From contig JABXGR010000010.1 in the NCBI GenBank assembly GCA_013538805.1, positions 1-56,463 of the forward strand: a stretch of DNA of 56,463 nucleotides, given 5' to 3'. How positions within the stretch are numbered: position 1 is the stretch's first letter; each line of letters begins with the position of its first letter. Source of the stretch: Candidatus Nitrosocaldus schleperae (GTDB lineage: Archaea; Thermoproteota; Nitrososphaeria; Nitrososphaerales; Nitrosocaldaceae). The notes beneath the pieces are model-generated. The model was given only the letters and a program-made list of their open reading frames with translations. It was not told where the DNA came from and did not search any database. Made by a program: the position numbers and the translations under genes. Positions 27,870 through 50,991 of the stretch are shown piece after piece.

Positions 27870-28007
27870 GTGGATAAGGCTAAAGGGGTTAGGGCATGTC
27901 CTATATGCTCTATATGCAATAGCAAGAAGTTCAGGATAGTTGCTAAATATGATGATGGTAGTATTATGCTTGAATGCTTAAGATGCTCAAATAGAATAAT
28001 TGTATGA
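27870..28007 (+). CDS. 45-residue zinc-ribbon protein
   Basis: A very short gene starting at GTG 27870, 31 bases after nadM. The product has ACPICSICNSKKFRIVAKYD and then LECLRCSNRIIV, two CxxC pairs that make a complete zinc ribbon and little else. TAATAATAT at 27843-27851 is about 23 bases upstream, giving a leaderless start. Its end overlaps the end of the convergent 150-residue gene by 21 bases. Such mini-ribbons are common in archaea; a role in transcription or RNA binding is guesswork. Confidence 0.6.
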   Translation: MDKAKGVRACPICSICNSKKFRIVAKYDDGSIMLECLRCSNRIIV

Positions 28008-28439
28008 TCTTAACTTATTTATCAGCGATTCATGGCAACTCATTGGTACAACCTTCTCTCTGTAAGTCTTGCGTGACTTTAGCAGTCTGGCAGTACTAGC
28101 ATCTATGCTAGTATAATGAAGCACTTTCGCTATCTTTGTATTACTATTATTACAGCGTTTGAAGATGAATTCTATTGTAGGTTCAAACTGTCTTATCTTC
28201 TGAGGAGATTTTGCTTTACTAGTAATTTCAACAAATATATAGAATGTGCTATCTATTACTATAACTGCATCACAATGGGGTTTGCTTATATCATTTAACT
28301 CTGGCTTGCTATTATAATCATATATATTATATTTAGTTATACCTGCTTGTGTGAGCATCTTCTTGCACATCTGCTTTACATGCTTATAATCAGAAGAATC
28401 AGGTTTCTCTAGTATATACACTATTGCATTCATACTCAT
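27987..28439 (-). CDS. Small protein paired with an AAA ATPase, possible PD-(D/E)XK nuclease
   Basis: A 150-residue protein I cannot place with certainty. After an N-terminal helix (HVKQMCKKMLTQAGI) it shows PHCDAVIVIDSTFYIFVEIT then SK: an acidic residue (D57), two strands and E71 with K75. This resembles the PD-(D/E)XK nuclease core, though Lys is two positions later than the canonical ExK. A basic segment follows (RLLKSRKTYREK). It overlaps the upstream ATPase gene by four bases (ATGA), so translation is coupled. The region is by eye more AT-rich than its neighbours. The pair could be an effector/sensor defence module. Confidence 0.6.
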   Translation of the reverse strand: MSMNAIVYILEKPDSSDYKHVKQMCKKMLTQAGITKYNIYDYNSKPELNDISKPHCDAVIVIDSTFYIFVEITSKAKSPQKIRQFEPTIEFIFKRCNNSNTKIAKVLHYTSIDASTARLLKSRKTYREKVVPMSCHESLINKLRSYNYSI

Positions 28440-29812
28440 ATATCAGTTATATGACTTATCCTTGCATGTGTCTCACCCATAGCTAATGCTACTTGCGTTA
28501 GATCTTCTTGTGGTATCCCTTCATCTTCTGTTACATTCAATTCCATTGTCGTGTAACCATGTAGTTGATCATCGTATTTGAAAAGATAAGCACTTAGATG
28601 GTCCATGGGCAGATACTCATCATCCATATAACCTAACTCTCTTCTCTTATCTTTACTAACCTTGTTTAATCGCATCAATATGTTAAACTCTTCCAGCAGA
28701 ATATCGCTATGAGTTGTGATAAGCACTCTAACACCACTCCTAGCAAGCATTGCTAATAATCTTGCAACCTTCCTCTGCAACTCAGGATGGAGGTGTGATT
28801 CAGGTTCTTCAAGTATTAGTATACTGTTAGGTATTACTACGTATTTGAGGTAGAGAGCAAGAGGAGCAAGTTCTGCTATGCCAGATGCAGCCTTTACAAT
28901 CGGTAATGTTAGATCAAACTTCTTATCTCTATATACAAACTCTGTAATTACGCCCTTTTTATCCATAACATTAATATCTATACTGCCTTCAAGTATCTGA
29001 GTATCAAGGAAGTCTATTATTCTTTGAAATTCTTTAGGTCTCCTATAGTTACCATAATACTTATTTGGTAGTAGTATTAATTGTGCAAGGAAATCTGCTG
29101 ATACTCCTGTAAGTCGTGGCATCTCTATAGATGATATTGATAGCTTTGCAGCAGATTCTATTATTGCACTTGCAACAGCTCTATATGCTTGTAATAATCC
29201 AGAACGTGATGCAGGCATATAGTTAATTGGATATGATACCAGTAGTTCATTACGTAGTATGTATTCTATCGTGACGGCCTTCTCTTCCCTAGGAATTCTA
29301 CCAGGTTTTATTATATCTTTTATTACATCGTTCAAAATATTAATAAGATCTTCCTTGGTTGGTAACTTCTCTATTCTTATCTTGTGACTACTTCCGATGC
29401 TTATCCTGTAATTAATTATCGATGTTGATACACCTATATTTACTCTCTTCGTGTTAGTATTTATTATGGAAGATATATCGCCAAATACCCCTACAAGACC
29501 CTTGTATATATCATCTTTAATAATGTTATTCAATACAGCGTACATATAATTATAGTAATCGTTTTTTGTTCTTAACTTCTTAAACCTTTTATGATTAATG
29601 GTCCTTAAATTATAAAAGTATTCTGTTGATCTACCTATCCCCTTGTACAATGCATATAGAAGCATAGCAGTATATGACTTGCCAGAGCCATTTGGCCCTA
29701 TGAAGACCGTTAAGGGTTTTATCTCAACGCTGCCTCTAACAAGAGGGCCCAAGCCTTCAAACTCAAGCCTAATATTACCTTTGCTTATAGTTCTAGCAGC
29801 CTTTACAGCCAC
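28436..29812 (-). CDS. AAA-type ATPase, OLD/DUF3696-like, in a two-gene unit
   Basis: A 458-residue P-loop ATPase of the SMC/OLD-like class. Walker A is FIGPNGSGKSYTAM (G39-S46), the mid-protein landmark PASRSGLLQAYRA is near residue 207, the Walker B block is SILILEEPESHLHPELQRK (catalytic Glu about 336), and the H-loop is VLITTHSDILLEE. The central 200 residues are variable and Ile/Asn/Lys-rich. There is no Toprim domain in the protein. Similar single ATPases occur in anti-phage systems with a separate effector, here the overlapping 150-residue gene. The start is GTG 29812; AATTTAAGT lies about 25 bases upstream. Confidence 0.85.
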   Translation of the reverse strand: MAVKAARTISKGNIRLEFEGLGPLVRGSVEIKPLTVFIGPNGSGKSYTAMLLYALYKGIGRSTEYFYNLRTINHKRFKKLRTKNDYYNYMYAVLNNIIKDDIYKGLVGVFGDISSIINTNTKRVNIGVSTSIINYRISIGSSHKIRIEKLPTKEDLINILNDVIKDIIKPGRIPREEKAVTIEYILRNELLVSYPINYMPASRSGLLQAYRAVASAIIESAAKLSISSIEMPRLTGVSADFLAQLILLPNKYYGNYRRPKEFQRIIDFLDTQILEGSIDINVMDKKGVITEFVYRDKKFDLTLPIVKAASGIAELAPLALYLKYVVIPNSILILEEPESHLHPELQRKVARLLAMLARSGVRVLITTHSDILLEEFNILMRLNKVSKDKRRELGYMDDEYLPMDHLSAYLFKYDDQLHGYTTMELNVTEDEGIPQEDLTQVALAMGETHARISHITDI

Positions 29813-39081: not shown

Positions 39082-39981
39082 TCATCTTATCATCCCATTT
39101 TTACCCTCTTCCCCTTTGTACTCTACTCCTACGGTATTGCTTCCCCTTTGCATGGTGCCTTTCTTGTATACTTTTCCATACATCAACCTTTTAAGTGTAT
39201 CTATACCATCATTAAAACTATTTGGTGATGTTATCATAACCTCCCCACATAGCCTGTATGCTTCAAGCACAAACGATTCTAGATCATGCTCATATCTACT
39301 CCAATCAAGGTTTATGCTTTCTGCGCTTGCCCTGTTCTTTGGAGATGGTACCATTATACATGGCACTATACACATATTATTAGCCTTTACCTTATCTGCA
39401 AGCAATACTAAAGGCTCAAGCGAAGAGATGCTCTGCGTTATCAGACCATGAGGCTCTGCACTGATCTTCCTGTTCAACTCATCCTCGCTGTAGTTCTCAG
39501 CATCTATCGAGAGATAGAGCCTTATATGCTTGGAGAAGCCATGCTCGTTCATGAATCTAACAACGCTACTAGGCTTCAATGCAGAGTCTATGCTTGAATG
39601 CTTTGGTTCATCACCCTTGATAACAAGCAATCCATCTATGCCAGCAAGGATAGCATCTGTAACAAGTTGGAGGATAGCATTAGTATTCCTATCCCTAACC
39701 CTTATGCTACACCTTGTCCTCAACTTATGCTTGTGCACTATCTCTCTTCCTATGCTTATACTTGAGAGTCTTGGGATACCAAGTACTGAATCTGTAACAT
39801 GGATCATGTATGCTAAGCCAGAGAGTGCTCTTACCCTAGAGTAGAACCTTGCAAGGTCACTATTCAACGATTGGAGATCGAACCTCTCTATCTGGGATGT
39901 ATTGGGATAGTTACAATTGCTATGGCTATTGCTAGTCATTATCCTTGGTGGGTTCATCTCGTATGTTATCTTCATCCTCAT
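39082..39981 (-). CDS. metF: Methylenetetrahydrofolate (or pterin) reductase
   Basis: An FAD-dependent TIM-barrel reductase making the methyl donor for methionine synthesis. Family blocks: MKITYEMNPPRI at the start, RALSGLAYMIHVTDSVLGIP (carrier-binding), GIDGLLVIKGDEPKH (the LRGDxP block), KISAEPHGLITQSI (the Gln block), and CIVPCIMVPSPKNR. The frame is open to 40014, but that Met lies in the TATATAG box (about 40013-40019); ATG 39981 or 39975 downstream fits both the promoter and the family. The C-terminus (GVEYKGEEGKNGMIR) extends beyond the barrel. First gene of an operon with the zinc-free MetE-like gene. Confidence 0.87.
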   Translation of the reverse strand: MRMKITYEMNPPRIMTSNSHSNCNYPNTSQIERFDLQSLNSDLARFYSRVRALSGLAYMIHVTDSVLGIPRLSSISIGREIVHKHKLRTRCSIRVRDRNTNAILQLVTDAILAGIDGLLVIKGDEPKHSSIDSALKPSSVVRFMNEHGFSKHIRLYLSIDAENYSEDELNRKISAEPHGLITQSISSLEPLVLLADKVKANNMCIVPCIMVPSPKNRASAESINLDWSRYEHDLESFVLEAYRLCGEVMITSPNSFNDGIDTLKRLMYGKVYKKGTMQRGSNTVGVEYKGEEGKNGMIR

Positions 39982-40253
39982 CCTTATGATGCAACCAATG
40001 GCTAATGCATCCAACTATATAATGCTTAGTGCACCCACAGATAGGGCAACGCCTTGTTACTCTTTGCATGTAATAGGTTATATATCAACGCTTATTAGTT
40101 TTAACAACCTAGAGGGTAATAGAGAGTACAAGTGGTATATTAAAATTAAGGTTGTAAATGTCTATCAATCTTCTACTGCATCCTATACTATAGGCTAGAA
40201 TGCAAACAAGCCTTCATGCATGGACCAGCAATACCATGCATTACTATATGTAC

Positions 40254-40376
40254 TCAACCATGGTTGATTACACTACACTGTAGTGCTTGTAGCATCTCAA
40301 TGAACCCTTGCATATTACCATTAACAGTAACTTTTGCAACATCTCTGCTGCATTGTACAATGTTAACATACATCAT
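40254..40376 (-). CDS. Possible 40-residue peptide
   Basis: Read on the minus strand from ATG 40376: MMYVNIVQCSRDVAKVTVNG, then NMQGFIEMLQALQCSVINHG. Codon choice resembles that of real genes here (GTT GCA AAA GTT ACT GTT AAT GGT), but there is no clear promoter and no recognised family. It may be the tail of a decayed gene. Confidence 0.25.
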   Translation of the reverse strand: MMYVNIVQCSRDVAKVTVNGNMQGFIEMLQALQCSVINHG

Positions 40377-40778
40377 CGATTGTAGTAAACGCCTGCTGCA
40401 TACAGGAGCATGACCTTAGCATGGTAACTGCTACTACTATCGTGAAGCCTGTTACTGCAAGTTGATCGTTAAAATTAATAAATATTATATGGTAAAACGT
40501 GTAACATAGATCATAAATCAATCATATCGTTGCTAGTCCTTATAATATTTATCGTATATTATTCAGATAAACTATTAATTATTACGCAAGATAACATAAG
40601 TAGAGAAGATGGATTACTAAGAGAATCTCTATTGTTAGTATTAATGCAAGATATTGTATGAGCAGAGCGTTAGAGATTAAAAGAATGTTCATGGATAAGC
40701 AGGCATTATAATTTGTTAATTAATCTCTTATTATAGATTAAGGTGAAAGACTTCAGACAAAATGGAATAAAAACTTTT

Positions 40779-40803
40779 ATTAACGAATTTATATATATTA
40801 ACG
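40779..40803. repeat. Direct repeat ATTAACG upstream of the island operon
   Basis: ATTAACG occurs at 40779-40785 and 40797-40803, 18 bases apart, immediately upstream of the TTTAAATATT box (40810-40819) that serves ATG 40841. The spacing of nearly two helical turns suits a dimeric regulator on one face of the DNA. Confidence 0.35.
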
Positions 40804-40840
40804 TTATAGTTTAAATATTTTGACAATTTTGAGAAAAAAT

Positions 40841-41323
40841 ATGAGTATAGTCTCCATATTTGGAGATGAATATACCAAAGATGCCATTATACGATATACA
40901 TCGAGAGCAGGGTATGCTATTAACACCTCTATCCATGAGCGGATAGAAACCTACCCTGGCCGATCCATATCTCCTATGGTTCACCTTGCAAGGAGAGTAC
41001 AGATAGTTCATTCATCATATCCTCTGAGAAATAAACTGCATATGAATACGGATACCATAACTAGGCTCATGAACCTAGGTATTGTGGAAGAGGATGGGGG
41101 AGTTTTAACATTAACAGGAAAGTACATGAAGTATATAGATGAGGTATGCTACAGACTATTAAGCAATGAATACAAGGATGCATATGTTGATGATCCATAC
41201 TCGCTAATGCTTGATAGCAATGCATATGCAATAACCTCCTGGGTAGGTATCATAAGGGAGAGTGAACTTGTTGAGATGCTTAATACTGTTATGAGCATAT
41301 GGGGTGAGATGCTGCTATGGTAG
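40841..41323 (+). CDS. Uncharacterised protein, first gene of the island operon
   Basis: A 160-residue protein I do not recognise. Its middle (KLHMNTDTITRLMNLGIVEE, then DGGVLTLTGKYMKYID) looks like a winged helix: recognition helix, then a strand-turn-strand wing. A regulator or replication/partition accessory is possible. The frame continues upstream to a TTG at 40820, but TTTAAATATT ends 21 bases before ATG 40841, which fits a leaderless start. Its last seven bases overlap the next gene. Confidence 0.6.
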   Translation: MSIVSIFGDEYTKDAIIRYTSRAGYAINTSIHERIETYPGRSISPMVHLARRVQIVHSSYPLRNKLHMNTDTITRLMNLGIVEEDGGVLTLTGKYMKYIDEVCYRLLSNEYKDAYVDDPYSLMLDSNAYAITSWVGIIRESELVEMLNTVMSIWGEMLLW

Positions 41324-41541
41324 CATTCATGCATGCACTAAATGAGGATCTAAGGATACAGATAGCATACATACTAGGTGTATTGGTAGGCAAGGGCTTG
41401 GATGATCCAAAGGCTATATGCATGCTCTTACAGGAGTGGGTAAGGATAAATGAGCCAGAGGTTGAAGAGAAGGATATAACTGCAACAATAGCAGAGATAG
41501 TGCAGGTAGTGAAGAGGATAGAATGCTGGAGGTACTGCTAG
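41317..41541 (+). CDS. 74-residue helical protein
   Basis: MVAFMHALNEDLRIQIAYIL, then GKGLDDPKAICMLLQEWVRI and ITATIAEIVQVVKRIECWRY. Entirely helical and acidic, with no known family. It overlaps the preceding gene by seven bases and is followed after 13 bases by a zinc-ribbon gene, so it is an internal member of the operon. Confidence 0.55.
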   Translation: MVAFMHALNEDLRIQIAYILGVLVGKGLDDPKAICMLLQEWVRINEPEVEEKDITATIAEIVQVVKRIECWRYC

Positions 41542-41554
41542 GAGGTGCAGAAAC

Positions 41555-41722
41555 ATGGTAAATAATATTAACGTTCCCCATATTAGGAGATGTAAATCAT
41601 GTTCTTGCATAAGAGAGATCTATGCCAGTGATTTATGCAAAAGATGTTACTATAGATTCTATATGCGCTGGTGGAGGACAAAAAACAAGAAAGTTCCCAT
41701 AACTAAGGAGGATGAAGTATAA
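41555..41722 (+). CDS. 55-residue zinc-ribbon protein
   Basis: A short gene with a strong Shine-Dalgarno site (GGAGGTG at 41541-41547) before ATG 41555. The product has RRCKSCSCIREIYASDLCKR and then CYYRFYMRWWR, two CxxC pairs giving a zinc ribbon followed by an aromatic and basic tail, as in small transcription- or DNA-binding ribbons of archaeal plasmids and viruses. It ends two bases before the helix-turn-helix gene. Confidence 0.65.
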   Translation: MVNNINVPHIRRCKSCSCIREIYASDLCKRCYYRFYMRWWRTKNKKVPITKEDEV

Positions 41723-41724
41723 GC

Positions 41725-42573
41725 ATGACTCTGGAGGCTTTAGCATCCTATAACATAAAGAAACACAAACTACTTGAGGAGTATAGGAGGTTCAATAGAT
41801 TAAAGGCTAATGATATAGCAGAACTTGCAGAGGAGTTAGAGCTTATGGGCTATCCCATAGATAGGATAGTTGATAAGCTGCTTAGGGATCTAGGAGAGGA
41901 GATCTCCAAAGCAGTGATACTCAAGGCATTGCCAGAGAAGTATCTGAAGGCAAAGAACAACAACAGTAGTAGTAGCAGGATGATGAGCAATGATAACTAT
42001 TCAGAAGTGTATTATGATGGAAATGGTGCAAGAGGCGAGACTATTGATATTGAGTATGGAGATGGAGCAGCAGTTGAATATGATAATGATGGTAGAAGTA
42101 GCAAGGAGATACTCCTAGCAATAATTGATGCCCAGATAACTGTGGAGGATCTACTAACCATGATTAAGGATCTTGCAAGCAAGTTAAGGAACAACCCTGC
42201 TCTCTTAAAGCAACTAGAACAGGAGCAGGAGGAGGTTAGATCACATGTAACAGGAATGAATGAGAGTATCAAGGCTATACGCTCAATACTTGATGAGATA
42301 AAGAGCAATAAGGATCTTGATATGAGATCATACATAAGGGAGTTGCAGACATTATGCATACACCTACTCTCACTATCATACTCCTATAGGCATATAGCGA
42401 AGGTCTTTGGTATATCAGCAAAGTGGGTTAGCAAGATAGTGAGAGAGCGAAGTATAGAGCATCTCCCAAGTGTGTATATAAAGGTTGATAGGGATGTGAA
42501 GGCAGGAGAGGAGATAGATATCCTGCCATATGCTGTAGCACTGTACAAGAAGAGGCAGCAGCAGGAAGAGTAA
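41725..42573 (+). CDS. Helix-turn-helix protein of the island operon
   Basis: A 282-residue protein. The N-terminal part is helical (YNIKKHKLLEEYRRFNRLKA). A low-complexity Asn/Ser and Asp/Gly-rich linker spans about 75-125, followed by a coiled segment (KQLEQEQEEVRSHVTGMNES). Near residue 215-240 there is a clear helix-turn-helix, SYSYRHIAKVFGISAKWVSK IVRE in layout (first helix YRHIAKVF, recognition helix SAKWVSKIVRE). It is preceded by GGAGG about 14 bases upstream. Plausibly the operon's DNA-binding regulator or partition-site binder; this is inference. Confidence 0.62.
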   Translation: MTLEALASYNIKKHKLLEEYRRFNRLKANDIAELAEELELMGYPIDRIVDKLLRDLGEEISKAVILKALPEKYLKAKNNNSSSSRMMSNDNYSEVYYDGNGARGETIDIEYGDGAAVEYDNDGRSSKEILLAIIDAQITVEDLLTMIKDLASKLRNNPALLKQLEQEQEEVRSHVTGMNESIKAIRSILDEIKSNKDLDMRSYIRELQTLCIHLLSLSYSYRHIAKVFGISAKWVSKIVRERSIEHLPSVYIKVDRDVKAGEEIDILPYAVALYKKRQQQEE

Positions 42574-42650
42574 GTAAAGTAAGTAAACATCTACTATAAT
42601 CAAACATATTTTTCTTCTCTCAATACACTTTTTATAATGAATGATCCCTC

Positions 42651-43304
42651 ATGCTATTCTCCATAGATGCTGTATTCGAGCAAGGTTATCCTAGAACAGA
42701 GAGAGCAATAGATGTTGCTCAGGCATTTGGGATAGCACTTAACACAAGGATATTCAAGGTGCTTGATGGTGTTGAGGTTAATATTGAACCTGGGGATGTT
42801 GTATACATAACTGGTGAGTCTGGATCAGGCAAGTCTATACTGCTTAGAACACTTGCAGAACATATCTCTAAACATAAGATCTTCGGCAAGGTATGCATTG
42901 CTGATAACATCAAGATAGATGAGGATGAGATACTTGTAGAGAGAATAGGCTCTAGCACAGATGAGGCTATAAGGCTGCTCAGTAGTGTTGGACTTAACGA
43001 TGCATACCTATTCCTTAGATGCTACAAGGAGTTGAGTGATGGGCAGAAGTACAGGTATAGAGTAGCAAAGGTTCTAGCAAGAGGGAGCAGGTATGGAGTG
43101 CTTGTATTCGATGAGTTCTGCTCAACCCTAGACAGGGATACTGCGAAGGTTGTTGCATACATGCTCCAGAAGATTGTAAGGGCAAATGGGAAGACCCTGT
43201 TGATTGCAACTGCACATGATGACCTTGCTGATGATCTCAAGCCAGATGTGATTATACGCAAAGGCTATGGTTCAAGGATAAGCATAGAGTATTGTAGAAG
43301 ATGA
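42651..43304 (+). CDS. ABC-type ATPase, N-terminal half of a COG2401-like protein
   Basis: A 217-residue P-loop ATPase of the ABC class: Walker A TGESGSGKSILLRTL (G55-S62), a signature-like ELSDGQKYRYRVAKVLARG, Walker B YGVLVFDEFCSTLD, and the H-loop TAHDDLADDL. There is no transporter partner. Together with the overlapping acetyltransferase it matches the family of ABC-type ATPases fused to a predicted acetyltransferase (COG2401), here as two proteins. Those families occur in archaea, plasmids and phages without known function. The stop codon overlaps the next start by four bases (ATGA). Confidence 0.78.
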   Translation: MLFSIDAVFEQGYPRTERAIDVAQAFGIALNTRIFKVLDGVEVNIEPGDVVYITGESGSGKSILLRTLAEHISKHKIFGKVCIADNIKIDEDEILVERIGSSTDEAIRLLSSVGLNDAYLFLRCYKELSDGQKYRYRVAKVLARGSRYGVLVFDEFCSTLDRDTAKVVAYMLQKIVRANGKTLLIATAHDDLADDLKPDVIIRKGYGSRISIEYCRR

Positions 43305-44083
43305 GGGAGTTGGATGGTATGAGTGGTTGCTTGAATAGTATGAAGGGCTATGGTTCAGATCATGAATGCTCCCTCCTCAAGCATGTTAGGATAGAGAGAG
43401 GCTGTATAGATGATTGGAAGATGCTAGAGGAGTACCATTACAGAGGAAATAGACCTTATGGAATAAAGTATGTATTCAATGCAGTACTCAAAGGGGAGGT
43501 TATAGGCATAATACTCTACAGCATGCCTGTACCATCTTGCAGGGGAAGGAACATAGCCCTTGGGAGAGTACCTAGCATAGAGGAGGTTAATAGAGACTTT
43601 ATAACTATAAGTAGGGTAGTTGTACTACCAAGGTTTAGAGGCATAGGTATAGCAAAGATGCTTGTAAGGCATACAATGCCTCTAGTAGGGAAGAGGTACG
43701 TTGAGAGCATCGCTGTTATGGGTAGATACAATCCATTCTTCATCAAGGCAGGGATGAGGGAGATAGTATATGAGCCTGATAGGAAGTATGTTAGAGCATT
43801 GAAGGGGTTGGAAGGTTATGGGTTCAATAGTAGGTTAGCAGCAAGTAGAGATTACTGTTACTCTATTCTGCAGAGCATGGATGATGATGCAGTTGAGGAT
43901 GTGCTGAATGTAGTGAGCAAGGTAAGGTTTGCTGTAATGAATGCAATTGGTAGAAGTAAAGAGTACTCCAAGACTATGCTATATGATAAGCATATACTTG
44001 CAAAGGCAATAGCAAACATTGCAATGCTTGCTCAAGAGAAGCACTACTACATATGGGAGAATCCTGAATATCTTCCAAGCTAA
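43301..44083 (+). CDS. GNAT acetyltransferase, C-terminal half of a COG2401-like protein
   Basis: A 260-residue protein with a GNAT fold: KMLEEYHYRGNRPYGIKYVF, then VISRVVV-type strand ISRVVVLPRFRGIGIAKMLV, which carries the acetyl-CoA loop RxxGIGxA, then GRYNPFFIKAGMREIVYEPD. The FIKAGM element is the typical GNAT C-terminal motif. The C-terminal 90 residues are helical. It is translationally coupled to the ATPase. The joint action (ATP-driven modification of a nucleic acid or protein) is inference. Confidence 0.78.
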   Translation: MRELDGMSGCLNSMKGYGSDHECSLLKHVRIERGCIDDWKMLEEYHYRGNRPYGIKYVFNAVLKGEVIGIILYSMPVPSCRGRNIALGRVPSIEEVNRDFITISRVVVLPRFRGIGIAKMLVRHTMPLVGKRYVESIAVMGRYNPFFIKAGMREIVYEPDRKYVRALKGLEGYGFNSRLAASRDYCYSILQSMDDDAVEDVLNVVSKVRFAVMNAIGRSKEYSKTMLYDKHILAKAIANIAMLAQEKHYYIWENPEYLPS

Positions 44084-44216
44084 GGTTTAATAGCAACAGG
44101 ACTATACGATTATAGTAAGATGAGGTTATCTTATCAAAAACAGAAGATTAATGGTGTACATGAATATGTTATACTAAATTTCGAAACATACAAAATTACA
44201 TACATATCCTAATATA

Positions 44217-44390
44217 ATGGGAGAGGCAAATCACATTGCATATATCCTTAACTATCTTAAGGATCGTAGAGTAGTAGATGTTGATTATGAGTTGAACATG
44301 ATGATAACAAAGGATACTGTAGAGGAGGTTCTAGATAAGGCAGATGATGCCTACAGGATACTTCTAAACCTTTCCCAACAGATATTATGA
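44217..44390 (+). CDS. 57-residue helical protein upstream of the ParB pseudogene
   Basis: MGEANHIAYILNYLKDRRVV, then DVDYELNMMITKDTVEEVLD and a helical end. It starts at ATG 44217 and ends one base before the GTG of the ParB-like gene, so it was probably cotranscribed with it. No family recognised; it could be a small partition or regulatory partner. Confidence 0.45.
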   Translation: MGEANHIAYILNYLKDRRVVDVDYELNMMITKDTVEEVLDKADDAYRILLNLSQQIL

Positions 44391-44391
44391 T

Positions 44392-45426
44392 GTGAATAAT
44401 AATAAGGTAGGTGTAAATAGGTATCAGGTAAACTGGATTGATGTAAACTCAATACATAAGGATGAGAGCAATCCTAATGCGATGGATGAGCATGAGTTCA
44501 ATGCCCTAGAGGGGTAAGCATTCATGGTATAATTCAGCCTATAATAACAAGACCGTGTACATGCGATCTCATAAGGGGAGAGGATGCATAGTTGATTAGG
44601 GAAGGTGGAGAGCAGCAAGCAATTCAGGATGAATGGGGTACCATGCATAGATAAGCATAGATGACATTCAAGCAAAGATACTCATGATCAACCTGAACAG
44701 CAGAAGCCTGCTAACCTTATAGTTGATCTAAAAAGGAGCATACCAATGGAGGAGATAATAAGATCTAGGCTATATCTCAACAAGGATTGCCTTGGGAGCA
44801 TAGTCAAGAGGAGAGGGATCGATGATCCATATGATAATTACTTACCTTGAATTGAGAGAGCAAGAGAGTGCTATGAGGGTAGTAGATGGTAGAATATGTA
44901 ATGACACTAACCAGAGCAATGCTCATAGCACAGTGAACCATGATACAGATAGTGTTAATATCAAGACAAGCATCATGTTGAGCAAGCAACAGTATGATAT
45001 GATAGTGAGTATTCTTGATGATACTGCTAGATATAGATGTACTAGGGGAGATGCTTTGCTTATCCTCTGCAGGATGCATTATCAAGCAGCAACAGGCAGT
45101 ATTCTTCAGGCTTAGGGATCAGGACAGGGTAAGAAGGCTATTGAGCGTTACATACATAGCAAAAACAAATGTACATAGTCTGGGTCTCAACACTTAGAGG
45201 TAGAGTAGGGGCATTCTACGAGATATATAAGGATGTGCAGATGGTAAGAATGGTTACCATGCAATAACGCTACCATATACAGTTGCTCTCAACACACTTC
45301 TGGATGAGCATTACATAGAGGTGCAGAAGAGGGTTAAAGGCAGGCTCTTCAGATAGGAGTACTGCTGAGTTCCTTGATGAGGCAAGTGCATTCAGCATGG
45401 ATGATATCAAGGATCTGCTTATCTAA
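44392..45426 (+). pseudogene. Frameshifted ParB-like nuclease-domain gene
   Basis: ParB-type pieces appear in order but in different frames: VNWIDVNSIHKDESNPNAMD then EHEFNALEG, ending at a stop at 44515; IQPIITRPCTCDLIRGEDA; GRWRAA; ISIDDIQAKILMINLN; NLIVDLKRSIPMEEIIRSRL; a longer open stretch (about 44822-45115, ELREQESAMRVV ... KQQYDMIVSILDD); VSTLRGRVGAFYEIYKDVQM; NGYHAITLPYTVALNTLLDE; and FLDEASAFSMDDIKDLLI with the final stop at 45424. Intact proteins of this type bind DNA and help segregation or regulation. At least six shifts or stops show decay. Adjacent genes are intact, so sequencing error is unlikely. Confidence 0.7.
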
Positions 45427-45533
45427 GACTCATTAAAGGTATATGCTATTGTTATATTGTAATACTTGATTAGCATGACATATGGTTTATCATGGAAGTG
45501 TTTGTTTGTTTATCCCTAGTAAATATTCTACTA

Positions 45534-45545
45534 TGTTTATATTAT
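45534..45545 (+). promoter_or_regulatory. TATA box of hicBA
   Basis: GTTTATATTATG is centred about 26 bases before ATG 45566. It supports that start over the ATG at 45482, which would add a hydrophobic, Tyr-rich leader unlike HicB. Confidence 0.5.
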
Positions 45546-45565
45546 GGTACAATTGTTATAATAAT

Positions 45566-45838
45566 ATGAGTATGAACCTGACTCATGCTTTTGATAATAA
45601 TACTCAGTATGCATCAACTGTCATAACTACAAAAATAAAGTCTTATACCATTATACTTGAGCAGGGGCTGGATGGATATATAGTGGTAAGATGTCTAGAA
45701 TTGCCAGTGGTAACTCAAGGAAAGGATGAGAATGAGGCTATAAGGAATGCCATAGAGGCTATTGAACTTGTGATCGAGGAGCTGGGTATTAATGATAGAT
45801 TCAACCTGATAATAAGGAGATTATACACTAAAATATAA
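45566..45838 (+). CDS. hicB: HicB-type antitoxin
   Basis: A 90-residue HicB (UPF0150) protein. The partial RNase-H-like fold is clear: SYTIILEQGLDGYIVVRCLE, LPVVTQGKDENEAIRNAIEA, then IELVIEEL. There is no added DNA-binding domain, so autorepression would need another factor. It is followed after 22 bases by hicA. The order antitoxin-first is the less common one for hicBA but well known in archaea. Confidence 0.85.
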   Translation: MSMNLTHAFDNNTQYASTVITTKIKSYTIILEQGLDGYIVVRCLELPVVTQGKDENEAIRNAIEAIELVIEELGINDRFNLIIRRLYTKI

Positions 45839-45860
45839 ATGCAAACCCAATCCCCTCTAG

Positions 45861-46073
45861 ATGGTGTATAGACTACCTAGGATAGGTGGTAAGGATCTTA
45901 TAAAATACTTATCCAAAAAATGTTACAAACCGACTAGGCAGAGGGGTAGCCACGTTGTGCTAAGATCTGAGCATGATAACAGGATAGTTGTTGTACCCTT
46001 GCATAATGAGCTTGATCGTGGTACACTGTTAGCAATACTTGAGCAAGCAGGTATAGATAGGGATCCTTTATAA
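45861..46073 (+). CDS. hicA: HicA-type mRNA-interferase toxin
   Basis: A 70-residue double-stranded-RNA-binding-fold toxin: LPRIGGKDLIKYLSKKCYKP, the catalytic His31 in RGSHVVLRSE, and the hallmark VVVPLHNELDRGTLLAILEQ. HicA toxins degrade mRNA when not bound by HicB. Transcribed with hicB and probably with the gene at 46098. Confidence 0.87.
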   Translation: MVYRLPRIGGKDLIKYLSKKCYKPTRQRGSHVVLRSEHDNRIVVVPLHNELDRGTLLAILEQAGIDRDPL

Positions 46074-46097
46074 GAGAGGTTAGAGGCTAGAGTAACG

Positions 46098-46544
46098 ATG
46101 CAAAGTGTAGAGGATCTACAGGAGGTAGATTTTACGGTCCTCAAAGAGGATTACAGCAGGTGGCGTATCAGCGATGGGGCAATAATAAAGGCCAAGGTCG
46201 TTGTGAAGAAGATATTCTTCTCTACTTTAAGAACGCCAGAGGGTTATCCCCAATCCTTCAGCATAGATAGTATAAACAGCGTAACTGCACTCGTACCACC
46301 ATCATTAAAGGGTAAGCCATCCAACGAGCCAGTAGATCCTAGCAAAGATAAAGGCGAAGAGATGGTGTTCGATGAACTGGATGTTAAGAAGCAGGAGTAT
46401 ATGACAAACAATGGTTACAGGATAGAGATCAAGCCTGTGATAACCAAAGTATTCAAATACAGTAAGAGGGATATATACGGTTATCCTGTATATAATGTTA
46501 TTATTCAAATGATAACCAACATCTACAAGATTGAAAGCATATAA
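46098..46544 (+). CDS. Two-repeat protein following hicBA
   Basis: A 148-residue protein built from two copies of one small beta domain: copy 1 WRISDGAIIKAKVVVKKIFF, then PEGYPQSFSIDSINSVTALV (about 19-70), and copy 2 NNGYRIEIKPVITKVFKYSK, then DIYGYPVYNVIIQMITNIYK (about 98-146), joined by a charged Pro/Asp/Glu linker. The single-copy version is at 30974-31213. It starts 24 bases after hicA and may belong to that transcript. Function unknown; its place suggests a partner or hitch-hiker of the toxin-antitoxin module. Confidence 0.6.
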   Translation: MQSVEDLQEVDFTVLKEDYSRWRISDGAIIKAKVVVKKIFFSTLRTPEGYPQSFSIDSINSVTALVPPSLKGKPSNEPVDPSKDKGEEMVFDELDVKKQEYMTNNGYRIEIKPVITKVFKYSKRDIYGYPVYNVIIQMITNIYKIESI

Positions 46545-46654
46545 TAAATAAGGATGAGGTAAGTGTATTCAGCATCGATAGTCAATCTATCTATGTGTAA
46601 GTAACAGTGCGTATTTATGTGATTATCTAACTTCATTATAATACATTTTACTCT

Positions 46655-47392
46655 TTAATCCTCATCCTCCTCATCCCCTCTTCTATATACTGAATTCATC
46701 ATGTATGCTCTATATACACTTGCCAATGCAAGTGTTATGCTTAAAGCACTCATAGATGCTACTATGGGATCCAGCCTTATACCCCATGGGCTGTAGTTCA
46801 ATAGGAAGCCTGTTAATGGGACAACGGCAAGGCTCAAGCCTATACTCAAGGCTACCCTCTCTATGATATCCATCTCTCTGCTAGGGAAGAGCAGATGCAC
46901 TAAAGCATAGCCAGGGATGAAGAGTACGAAGGCTCCTCCTACAACTATCCTTACAATGCTCCATGGCAGTGCATCTGGAAGCACATATATTGTTAATATC
47001 GTTACAGCAGTAACTATTGTAGTTATCCAGAGTGTCATGCTCAGATACATATTCTTCAGGTAATCCTTGAATGATGTTATGCTTGAGTTGTATAACATTA
47101 TAGCCTTCTTGTGTGCAAGCCTCCTAACAGCATCTAAGATATCATCTATGGTTATTGATGGTGAAGAGACGAGCCTTGACTTGATAAAGTCATTGCCCAT
47201 AAGCATATCAACTATATCCTTAACCTTGGTACAGTTATTCCTTACTGCATATAGCACTAGTTGCTCAAGCATCTCATCCCTATCCTCTATCTTGAGGATC
47301 TGCTCTATACTCTTGATCTTATCCTTGTCCTTGCCCTTGCCTATCCTTATCCCTTCCTCTTCTACTTTACGTTGAACCATATCTGATTCCAC
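46655..47392 (-). CDS. DUF1616-type membrane protein (transmembrane half)
   Basis: A 245-residue protein (GTG 47392, or ATG 47380). A cytoplasmic charged N-terminus with a small helical domain (about 25-95) is followed by four membrane segments: MTLWITTIVTAVTILTIYVL, SIVRIVVGGAFVLFIPGYAL, VALSIGLSLAVVPLTGFLLN and a last one near 215. The motif FIPGYALVHLLFPSREMDII ERVALSIGLS in layout is diagnostic for DUF1616. The extracellular half normally fused in archaeal DUF1616 proteins is the next gene upstream (overlap 31 bases). Role probably in surface assembly; not established. Confidence 0.75.
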   Translation of the reverse strand: MESDMVQRKVEEEGIRIGKGKDKDKIKSIEQILKIEDRDEMLEQLVLYAVRNNCTKVKDIVDMLMGNDFIKSRLVSSPSITIDDILDAVRRLAHKKAIMLYNSSITSFKDYLKNMYLSMTLWITTIVTAVTILTIYVLPDALPWSIVRIVVGGAFVLFIPGYALVHLLFPSREMDIIERVALSIGLSLAVVPLTGFLLNYSPWGIRLDPIVASMSALSITLALASVYRAYMMNSVYRRGDEEDED

Positions 47393-50607: not shown

Positions 50608-50991
50608 TCAATCTCTAATAACATGACCATATATACACTCTATCCCTAACTCTTTGGCCTTATCTACTGCCTCTGCATCCATATTCACTGCTACTGCTAT
50701 AAGCCTCTTTATGTTGTAGCCTATAACTGGTCTTATGCTGTTCACCTTCTCGTAAAACGTTACTATATCCTCTTCACTTATAGGGTTCTTAACCTCTATT
50801 ATATCAGCATAGCCATTACTAACAATTATATCAAACTCGTACTTCTTCCCCTTTGTTCCGTATAACCCTTCCTTATCGATATACTCAAACCTCCTAGCCT
50901 TATCCTTGTCTATGCCTATCTGCATCAACTGATCTCTATATATGTTAAGGATTAGTCTCTCAAGATCCTTACCTAGTATGTCCATACCCAT
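50608..50991 (-). CDS. PD-(D/E)XK nuclease-like protein (DUF3782 type), N-truncated
   Basis: A 127-residue protein with the core of a restriction-like fold: KYEFDIIVSNGYADIIEVKN (Asp, then Glu-x-Lys), a helix, IKRLIAVAVNMDAEAVDKAK, and ELGIECIYGHVI. This is the C-terminal domain of archaeal DUF3782-like proteins, which normally carry an N-terminal coiled coil. Upstream in another frame (50992-51050) the sequence reads ESIDELRKKYLEAKAYEKEW, a coiled-coil-like remnant, so this copy may have lost its N-terminus by frameshift. Active-site residues are intact. A relative ends at 1-135. Confidence 0.65.
   Translation of the reverse strand: MGMDILGKDLERLILNIYRDQLMQIGIDKDKARRFEYIDKEGLYGTKGKKYEFDIIVSNGYADIIEVKNPISEEDIVTFYEKVNSIRPVIGYNIKRLIAVAVNMDAEAVDKAKELGIECIYGHVIRD

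Follow-up and report, generated by a model that had tools for sequence, protein, structure and literature searches.

Why should an archaeal chromosome pair an ABC-type ATPase with a GNAT acyltransferase, and on what would such a pair act? The question is raised by a cluster of six genes in Candidatus Nitrosocaldus schleperae, an ammonia oxidiser from hot springs, located on a 56,463-nucleotide stretch of contig JABXGR010000010.1 that was analysed as a whole and is called the window below. In the papers found, the function of ABC-ATPase/GNAT pairs is a matter of prediction: GNATs coupled to ABC ATPases are predicted to acylate a DNA base (Iyer, Aravind and colleagues, as cited in PMC7824862). 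A literature search for COG2401, the family to which the pair had been assigned, gave nothing. We propose that the locus is a relic of a tailed provirus, from which the host kept an operon encoding an ATP-dependent DNA acyltransferase. To this account, taken as a whole, we assign about an even chance.

Organization of the gene cluster

The six open reading frames that the original prediction placed in series were all present on the forward strand and are conserved. Genes A to D overlap or are tightly packed, and 77 nucleotides separate D from E. Transcription of E may therefore be separate, as a leaderless start ahead of it is possible. Gene A (40841-41323) encodes 160 amino acids, of which the C-terminal two thirds are conserved and the N-terminal 52 or so are variable; because the first 52 codons vary (dN/dS 0.66, with a wide interval), the true start may lie further in. 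Gene B (41317-41541, 74 aa) has no known domain, and a match to P2 GpR (8e-4, under the gathering score) was judged to be due to chance. The 55-aa product of gene C (41555-41722) contains four invariant cysteines, C13, C16, C28 and C31, arranged as two CxxC pairs, and is zinc-ribbon-like, as had been proposed. Gene D (41725-42573) encodes a putative DNA-binding protein of 282 aa with weak signals for a coiled coil and a C-terminal helix-turn-helix. The latter agrees in kind with the helix-turn-helix protein that was expected here but stays below threshold, and the predicted structure of D (pLDDT 48) was unusable. Domain searches with A, B and D gave no significant match, leaving the suggested winged-helix-like nature of A unconfirmed.

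The leader is indeed AT-rich (31.6% GC vs 41.9%), but the repeats attributed to it were reduced to weak two-copy matches in a repeat search. Upstream of gene A, a TATA-like element TTTATATATAT and a near-invariant block ATATTAACGTTATAGTTTAAATATT occupy positions 40788-40820 on the forward strand. In a noncoding alignment of five Nitrosocaldus species, the TATA-like element and the sequence up to about 30 bases beyond it are nearly invariant, and we regard this stretch as a putative promoter/operator. A regulon search at up to three mismatches found no further copies in the same genome, so the block is single-copy.

The ATPase and the acyltransferase as halves of one protein

Gene E (42651-43304) encodes an ABC-type ATPase (ABC_tran, PF00005, E 1.5e-12; phrog_293, E 2.7e-33) that corresponds to the N-terminal half of an ABC-GNAT protein, with Walker A (GESGSGKS), signature (LSDGQ), Walker B (VFDEF) and H-switch intact. 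Gene F (43301-44083) supplies the C-terminal half, a GNAT acyltransferase (Acetyltransf_1, PF00583, E 1.9e-5; phrog_886, E 5.9e-22) with an intact acyl-CoA motif, the R113-G114-I115-G116 (RGIG) loop. Both assignments agree with the original prediction. That E is the ATPase subunit of an ABC transporter, as the ABC_tran match and phage homologues labelled 'ABC transporter' might suggest, is highly improbable: the operon lacks a gene for a transmembrane partner, as had been noted before, archaeal relatives of E are fused to a GNAT, and their neighbours are packaging genes. Other labels given to homologues in phages include 'ABC-type ATPase fused to a predicted acyltransferase domain'. The MADS defence system was rejected as a candidate, since in PADLOC the ATPase alone matches it (mad3, 2.3e-17, and mad8), with no match for D, F or the neighbours that were tested.

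E and F are coupled through the ATGA overlap described earlier. They do correspond to the N- and C-terminal halves of an ABC-ATPase/GNAT fusion, but their separation is special to the window genome rather than the general state: the fused open reading frame of about 480-505 aa is found in four congeners, and most archaeal relatives likewise encode one fused protein. The junction in the window falls in a hypervariable, low-complexity linker, where the frame changes. Judged from the sequence, the split is a recent, lineage-specific break in this linker. A sequencing or assembly error hiding a fused gene is rather unlikely; every intact congener has the fusion and the analysis covered one assembly of the window strain, but the break sits in a linker whose length varies among species, each half is complete, and phages of the SSU5 type have the halves as separate proteins. 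Both complete halves keep a dN/dS near 0.2. Separate chains appear workable, since SSU5 and nickie each encode the ATPase and the GNAT as two proteins. The fission may weaken the enzyme in the window strain.

The island as a provirus relic

The order A-B-C-D-ATPase/GNAT recurs at the same chromosomal site in four other Nitrosocaldus genomes, between orthologues of the host genes at 39082-40014 and 46655-47392. A fifth (G002) has a decayed copy in which D, E and F have degenerated, and its flanking host genes lie on two contigs; in the sister genus (G006), the orthologues of the flanking genes are also on different contigs. In one congener (G001) only about 55 bases lie between the end of the fused gene and the flanking host gene, leaving no other part of the island there.

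Downstream of the operon in the window follow a small open reading frame of 57 aa (44217-44390, +), 89% identical to the gene preceding ParB in Ca. N. tengchongensis, and the ParB-like pseudogene that the original prediction had correctly placed here (44395-45085, +), with stops, frameshifts and a dN/dS of about 0.8. It is followed by a remnant that the prediction had missed (45075-45423, +). This remnant derives from the C-terminal part of the large-terminase (TerL) fragment seen in Ca. N. tengchongensis; the window has lost the upstream part of TerL along with the small-terminase-like gene. Downstream of its ABC-GNAT gene, Ca. N. tengchongensis (L027/L181) carries in turn a gene for 56 aa, ParB (PF02195, E 5.5e-13), a small HTH protein where a small terminase would be expected, and a TerL fragment (PF03237, E 5.3e-10) with a longer open frame that keeps most of the gene. 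Because ParB, the small-terminase-like gene and most of TerL are retained there, the island (about 40,100-46,650) is almost certainly what a tailed (Caudoviricetes) provirus left behind. No capsid, portal or tail genes were identified in the window between the host genes on either side, which makes it a relic and not a complete virus. The provirus would have integrated before the sampled Nitrosocaldus species split, with most virion and packaging genes then lost or left to decay.

Other thaumarchaeal proviruses, Nvie-Pro1, NCAV2-Pro1 and CalSub-Pro, are Caudoviricetes-derived chromosomal loci that have been suggested to be possibly domesticated (PMC6563490, PMC5797428). The window island resembles them in being such a locus in a thaumarchaeal chromosome. 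Whereas they were found via TerL and kept morphogenesis genes, it consists only of the ABC-GNAT operon and pseudogenes, and relics of this kind escape TerL-based provirus searches. The window genome has a second, longer TerL with an open frame of 422 aa (G000:C8:202420-203007), perhaps belonging to an NCAV2-Pro1-type provirus. Right after the TerL remnant, at 45482-46073 (+), the window carries HicB-like and HicA (PF07927, E 1.2e-16) genes; in Ca. N. tengchongensis HicB is 95% identical to that of the window and HicA is broken by stops.

ABC-GNAT genes in tailed viruses

Among 61 genomes, genes A, C and D were found in Nitrosocaldus only, and on this ground a stand-alone acetylation operon conserved across taxa was rejected. 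Co-occurrence of all six families thus held for the four congeners but, for A, C and D, not outside the genus in this set. A scan of viral contigs for B, C and D gave nothing, a weak negative as few peptide patterns were used.

The ABC-GNAT protein itself is widespread. As a viral query, E alone found nothing and an alignment of the fused protein worked; a degenerate-pattern scan yielded relatives in IMG/VR (at least 564 contigs) and in genome assemblies (222 contigs). A class-wide ATPase tally (248 of 250 genomes) reflected generic ABC ATPases and was set aside. The TerL profile matched 64 of the 80 best viral loci; in 58 of these 80, TerL was encoded on the same strand no more than 400 bases away, and in 55 it stood immediately upstream. 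In other Nitrososphaeria the fused gene adjoins TerL and tail genes, and at several genome loci where TerL was not detected it stands beside genes for portal, head maturation protease, major capsid and connector/head-tail adaptor proteins. In the archaea Geocrenenecus (L222, 3736-10789) and Calditenuaceae (L258, 7453-10750), it lies within a proviral head cluster, surrounded by protease, capsid, head-tail adaptor and tail tube genes. The bacteriophages SSU5, nickie and BUCTxx99 share the gene order ParB(-like)-ABC-GNAT, followed in nickie and BUCTxx99 by terminase, portal and capsid. The ABC-GNAT gene thus belongs to tailed viruses, archaeal and bacterial, where it adjoins genes for packaging and the capsid or stands in their midst.

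These neighbourhoods bear on the proposed stand-alone operon with DNA-binding partners, which did not hold: A, C and D are genus-specific and elsewhere the neighbours are packaging and head genes. Its other element, nucleic-acid acylation, coincides with the published prediction. The Nitrosocaldus protein has the same domain pair in the same order as the COG2401-type phage proteins (PHROG 293 and 886), which also have ParB beside them. It differs from the phage versions in being host-resident, in having genes A to D upstream, in its lost or decaying packaging genes and, for the window copy, in being split. In a quick tree the Nitrosocaldus proteins form one fully supported clade. A 3-kb contig of an Anaerolineaceae (bacterial) MAG (L234) carries a bathyarchaeal-type ABC-GNAT, probably through a binning error.

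Selection on the operon

Genes B to F show dN/dS values of 0.08-0.26 across five genomes, at dS up to about 1.8, similar to a flanking metabolic gene, which supports their coding status. Bootstrapped values were 0.16-0.19 for E, 0.10-0.24 for F and 0.18 for D. The corresponding values in the same island were 0.78 (bootstrap interval 0.58-1.13) for ParB and 0.52 (0.32-0.84) for TerL. Values of dS for the operon follow those of the flanking gene, in keeping with vertical descent. Purifying selection on E, F and D while ParB and TerL decay points to domestication, and the short operon, comprising ABC-GNAT and A to D, was probably domesticated by the host. It is not essential, as the congener G002 lost it by decay.

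This loss of D, E and F would also fit plain provirus decay, with an operon that is functionless for the host and merely slower to degenerate, and so would the split copy and the broken ParB and TerL of the window. We consider such decay improbable, because B to F have dN/dS values far under those of the adjacent pseudogenes at that depth of divergence, and the promoter block is near-invariant. The Nitrosocaldus loci present a case of an enzyme outliving its virus under selection.

DNA or protein as the substrate

Several features connect the GNAT with Mom, the GNAT for N6-adenine modification in phage Mu. Gene F matched the Mom family phrog_1384 weakly (E 3.3e-4), and an hhalign comparison gave a weak but colinear alignment (probability 27%, P 6.6e-4) with an HY motif common to both, which in the ABC-GNAT protein is an invariant His-Tyr pair. 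A search of PDB sequences with the GNAT gave nothing at E 0.01. With the model of the GNAT (pLDDT 83), Foldseek ranked the crystal structure of Mu Mom (8bv8) fourth in the PDB, among many ordinary GNATs with similar scores, and phage Mom was among the top matches in viral structure models. A conserved arginine before the acyl-CoA loop is a further likeness, and ParB-Mom gene pairs of actinophages parallel the ParB found beside ABC-GNAT: in Bush (L049, 4469-5621) and Wyborn (L050, 2408-3564), a ParB-like nuclease gene directly precedes a Mom-like GNAT that has no ABC ATPase. The two families also differ. Mom lacks the ATPase, profile similarity is weak, and the NxES loop of Mom, whose serine is mutated in the inactive S124A structure, is absent from the ABC-GNAT family, which has the common RGxG acyl-CoA loop. 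The missing NxES loop places the GNAT outside the Mom family, but by analogy it may work like Mom. The mom gene of phage Mu is a late gene that acts before packaging, which matches the packaging setting of ABC-GNAT.

Modification of DNA by ABC-GNAT has, in our judgement, slightly less than an even chance. The ABC ATPase would dimerise on DNA in an ATP-dependent manner, and the attached GNAT domain would acylate a base with acyl-CoA as donor, in the way Mom does in phage Mu. During viral growth, progeny genomes would receive this mark at a late stage, around the time of packaging, and so escape restriction. For the archaeon, the kept operon would label host DNA or counter incoming viruses, perhaps with the DNA-binding candidate D directing it. 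We infer DNA as the target, base acylation as the reaction and the role of A to D, and, from selection alone, a benefit to the host.

The position of ABC-GNAT beside TerL, portal, protease and capsid genes would also suit an enzyme acting on a packaging, head or host protein, with TerL, portal or a chromatin protein as examples of what it might acetylate. The ATPase would then be a motor or switch, and the host would have kept the enzyme for protein acetylation. The top fold matches include protein N-acetyltransferases such as NAA60 (5icw), and a phage GNAT that acetylates host proteins is known (Rac, as cited in PMC7824862). Against a protein target, the ParB nuclease neighbour and the Mom-like features favour DNA, and in Nitrosocaldus the enzyme persists after the loss of TerL; we regard a protein target as a minority possibility. 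For DNA as the target, the most specific version, a packaging-coupled DNA base acyltransferase of archaeal and bacterial tailed viruses that was domesticated in Nitrosocaldus with DNA-binding partners A to D and marks the genome, is a tentative proposal. If true, a thermophilic ammonia oxidiser would carry a base mark on its genome. The adjacency to terminase and head genes, together with the ParB-terminase setting in phages, provides a testable context.

Other loci in the window

On the reverse strand at 27987-29812, an OLD/AAA_21-like ATPase of 458 aa (PADLOC PD-T4-4_A, E 1.7e-41) overlaps a 150-aa protein without domain match, and from its sequence this looks like a two-gene defence-type pair. 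A 127-aa protein encoded at 50608-50991, also on the reverse strand, has a weak match to PDDEXK-type nucleases.
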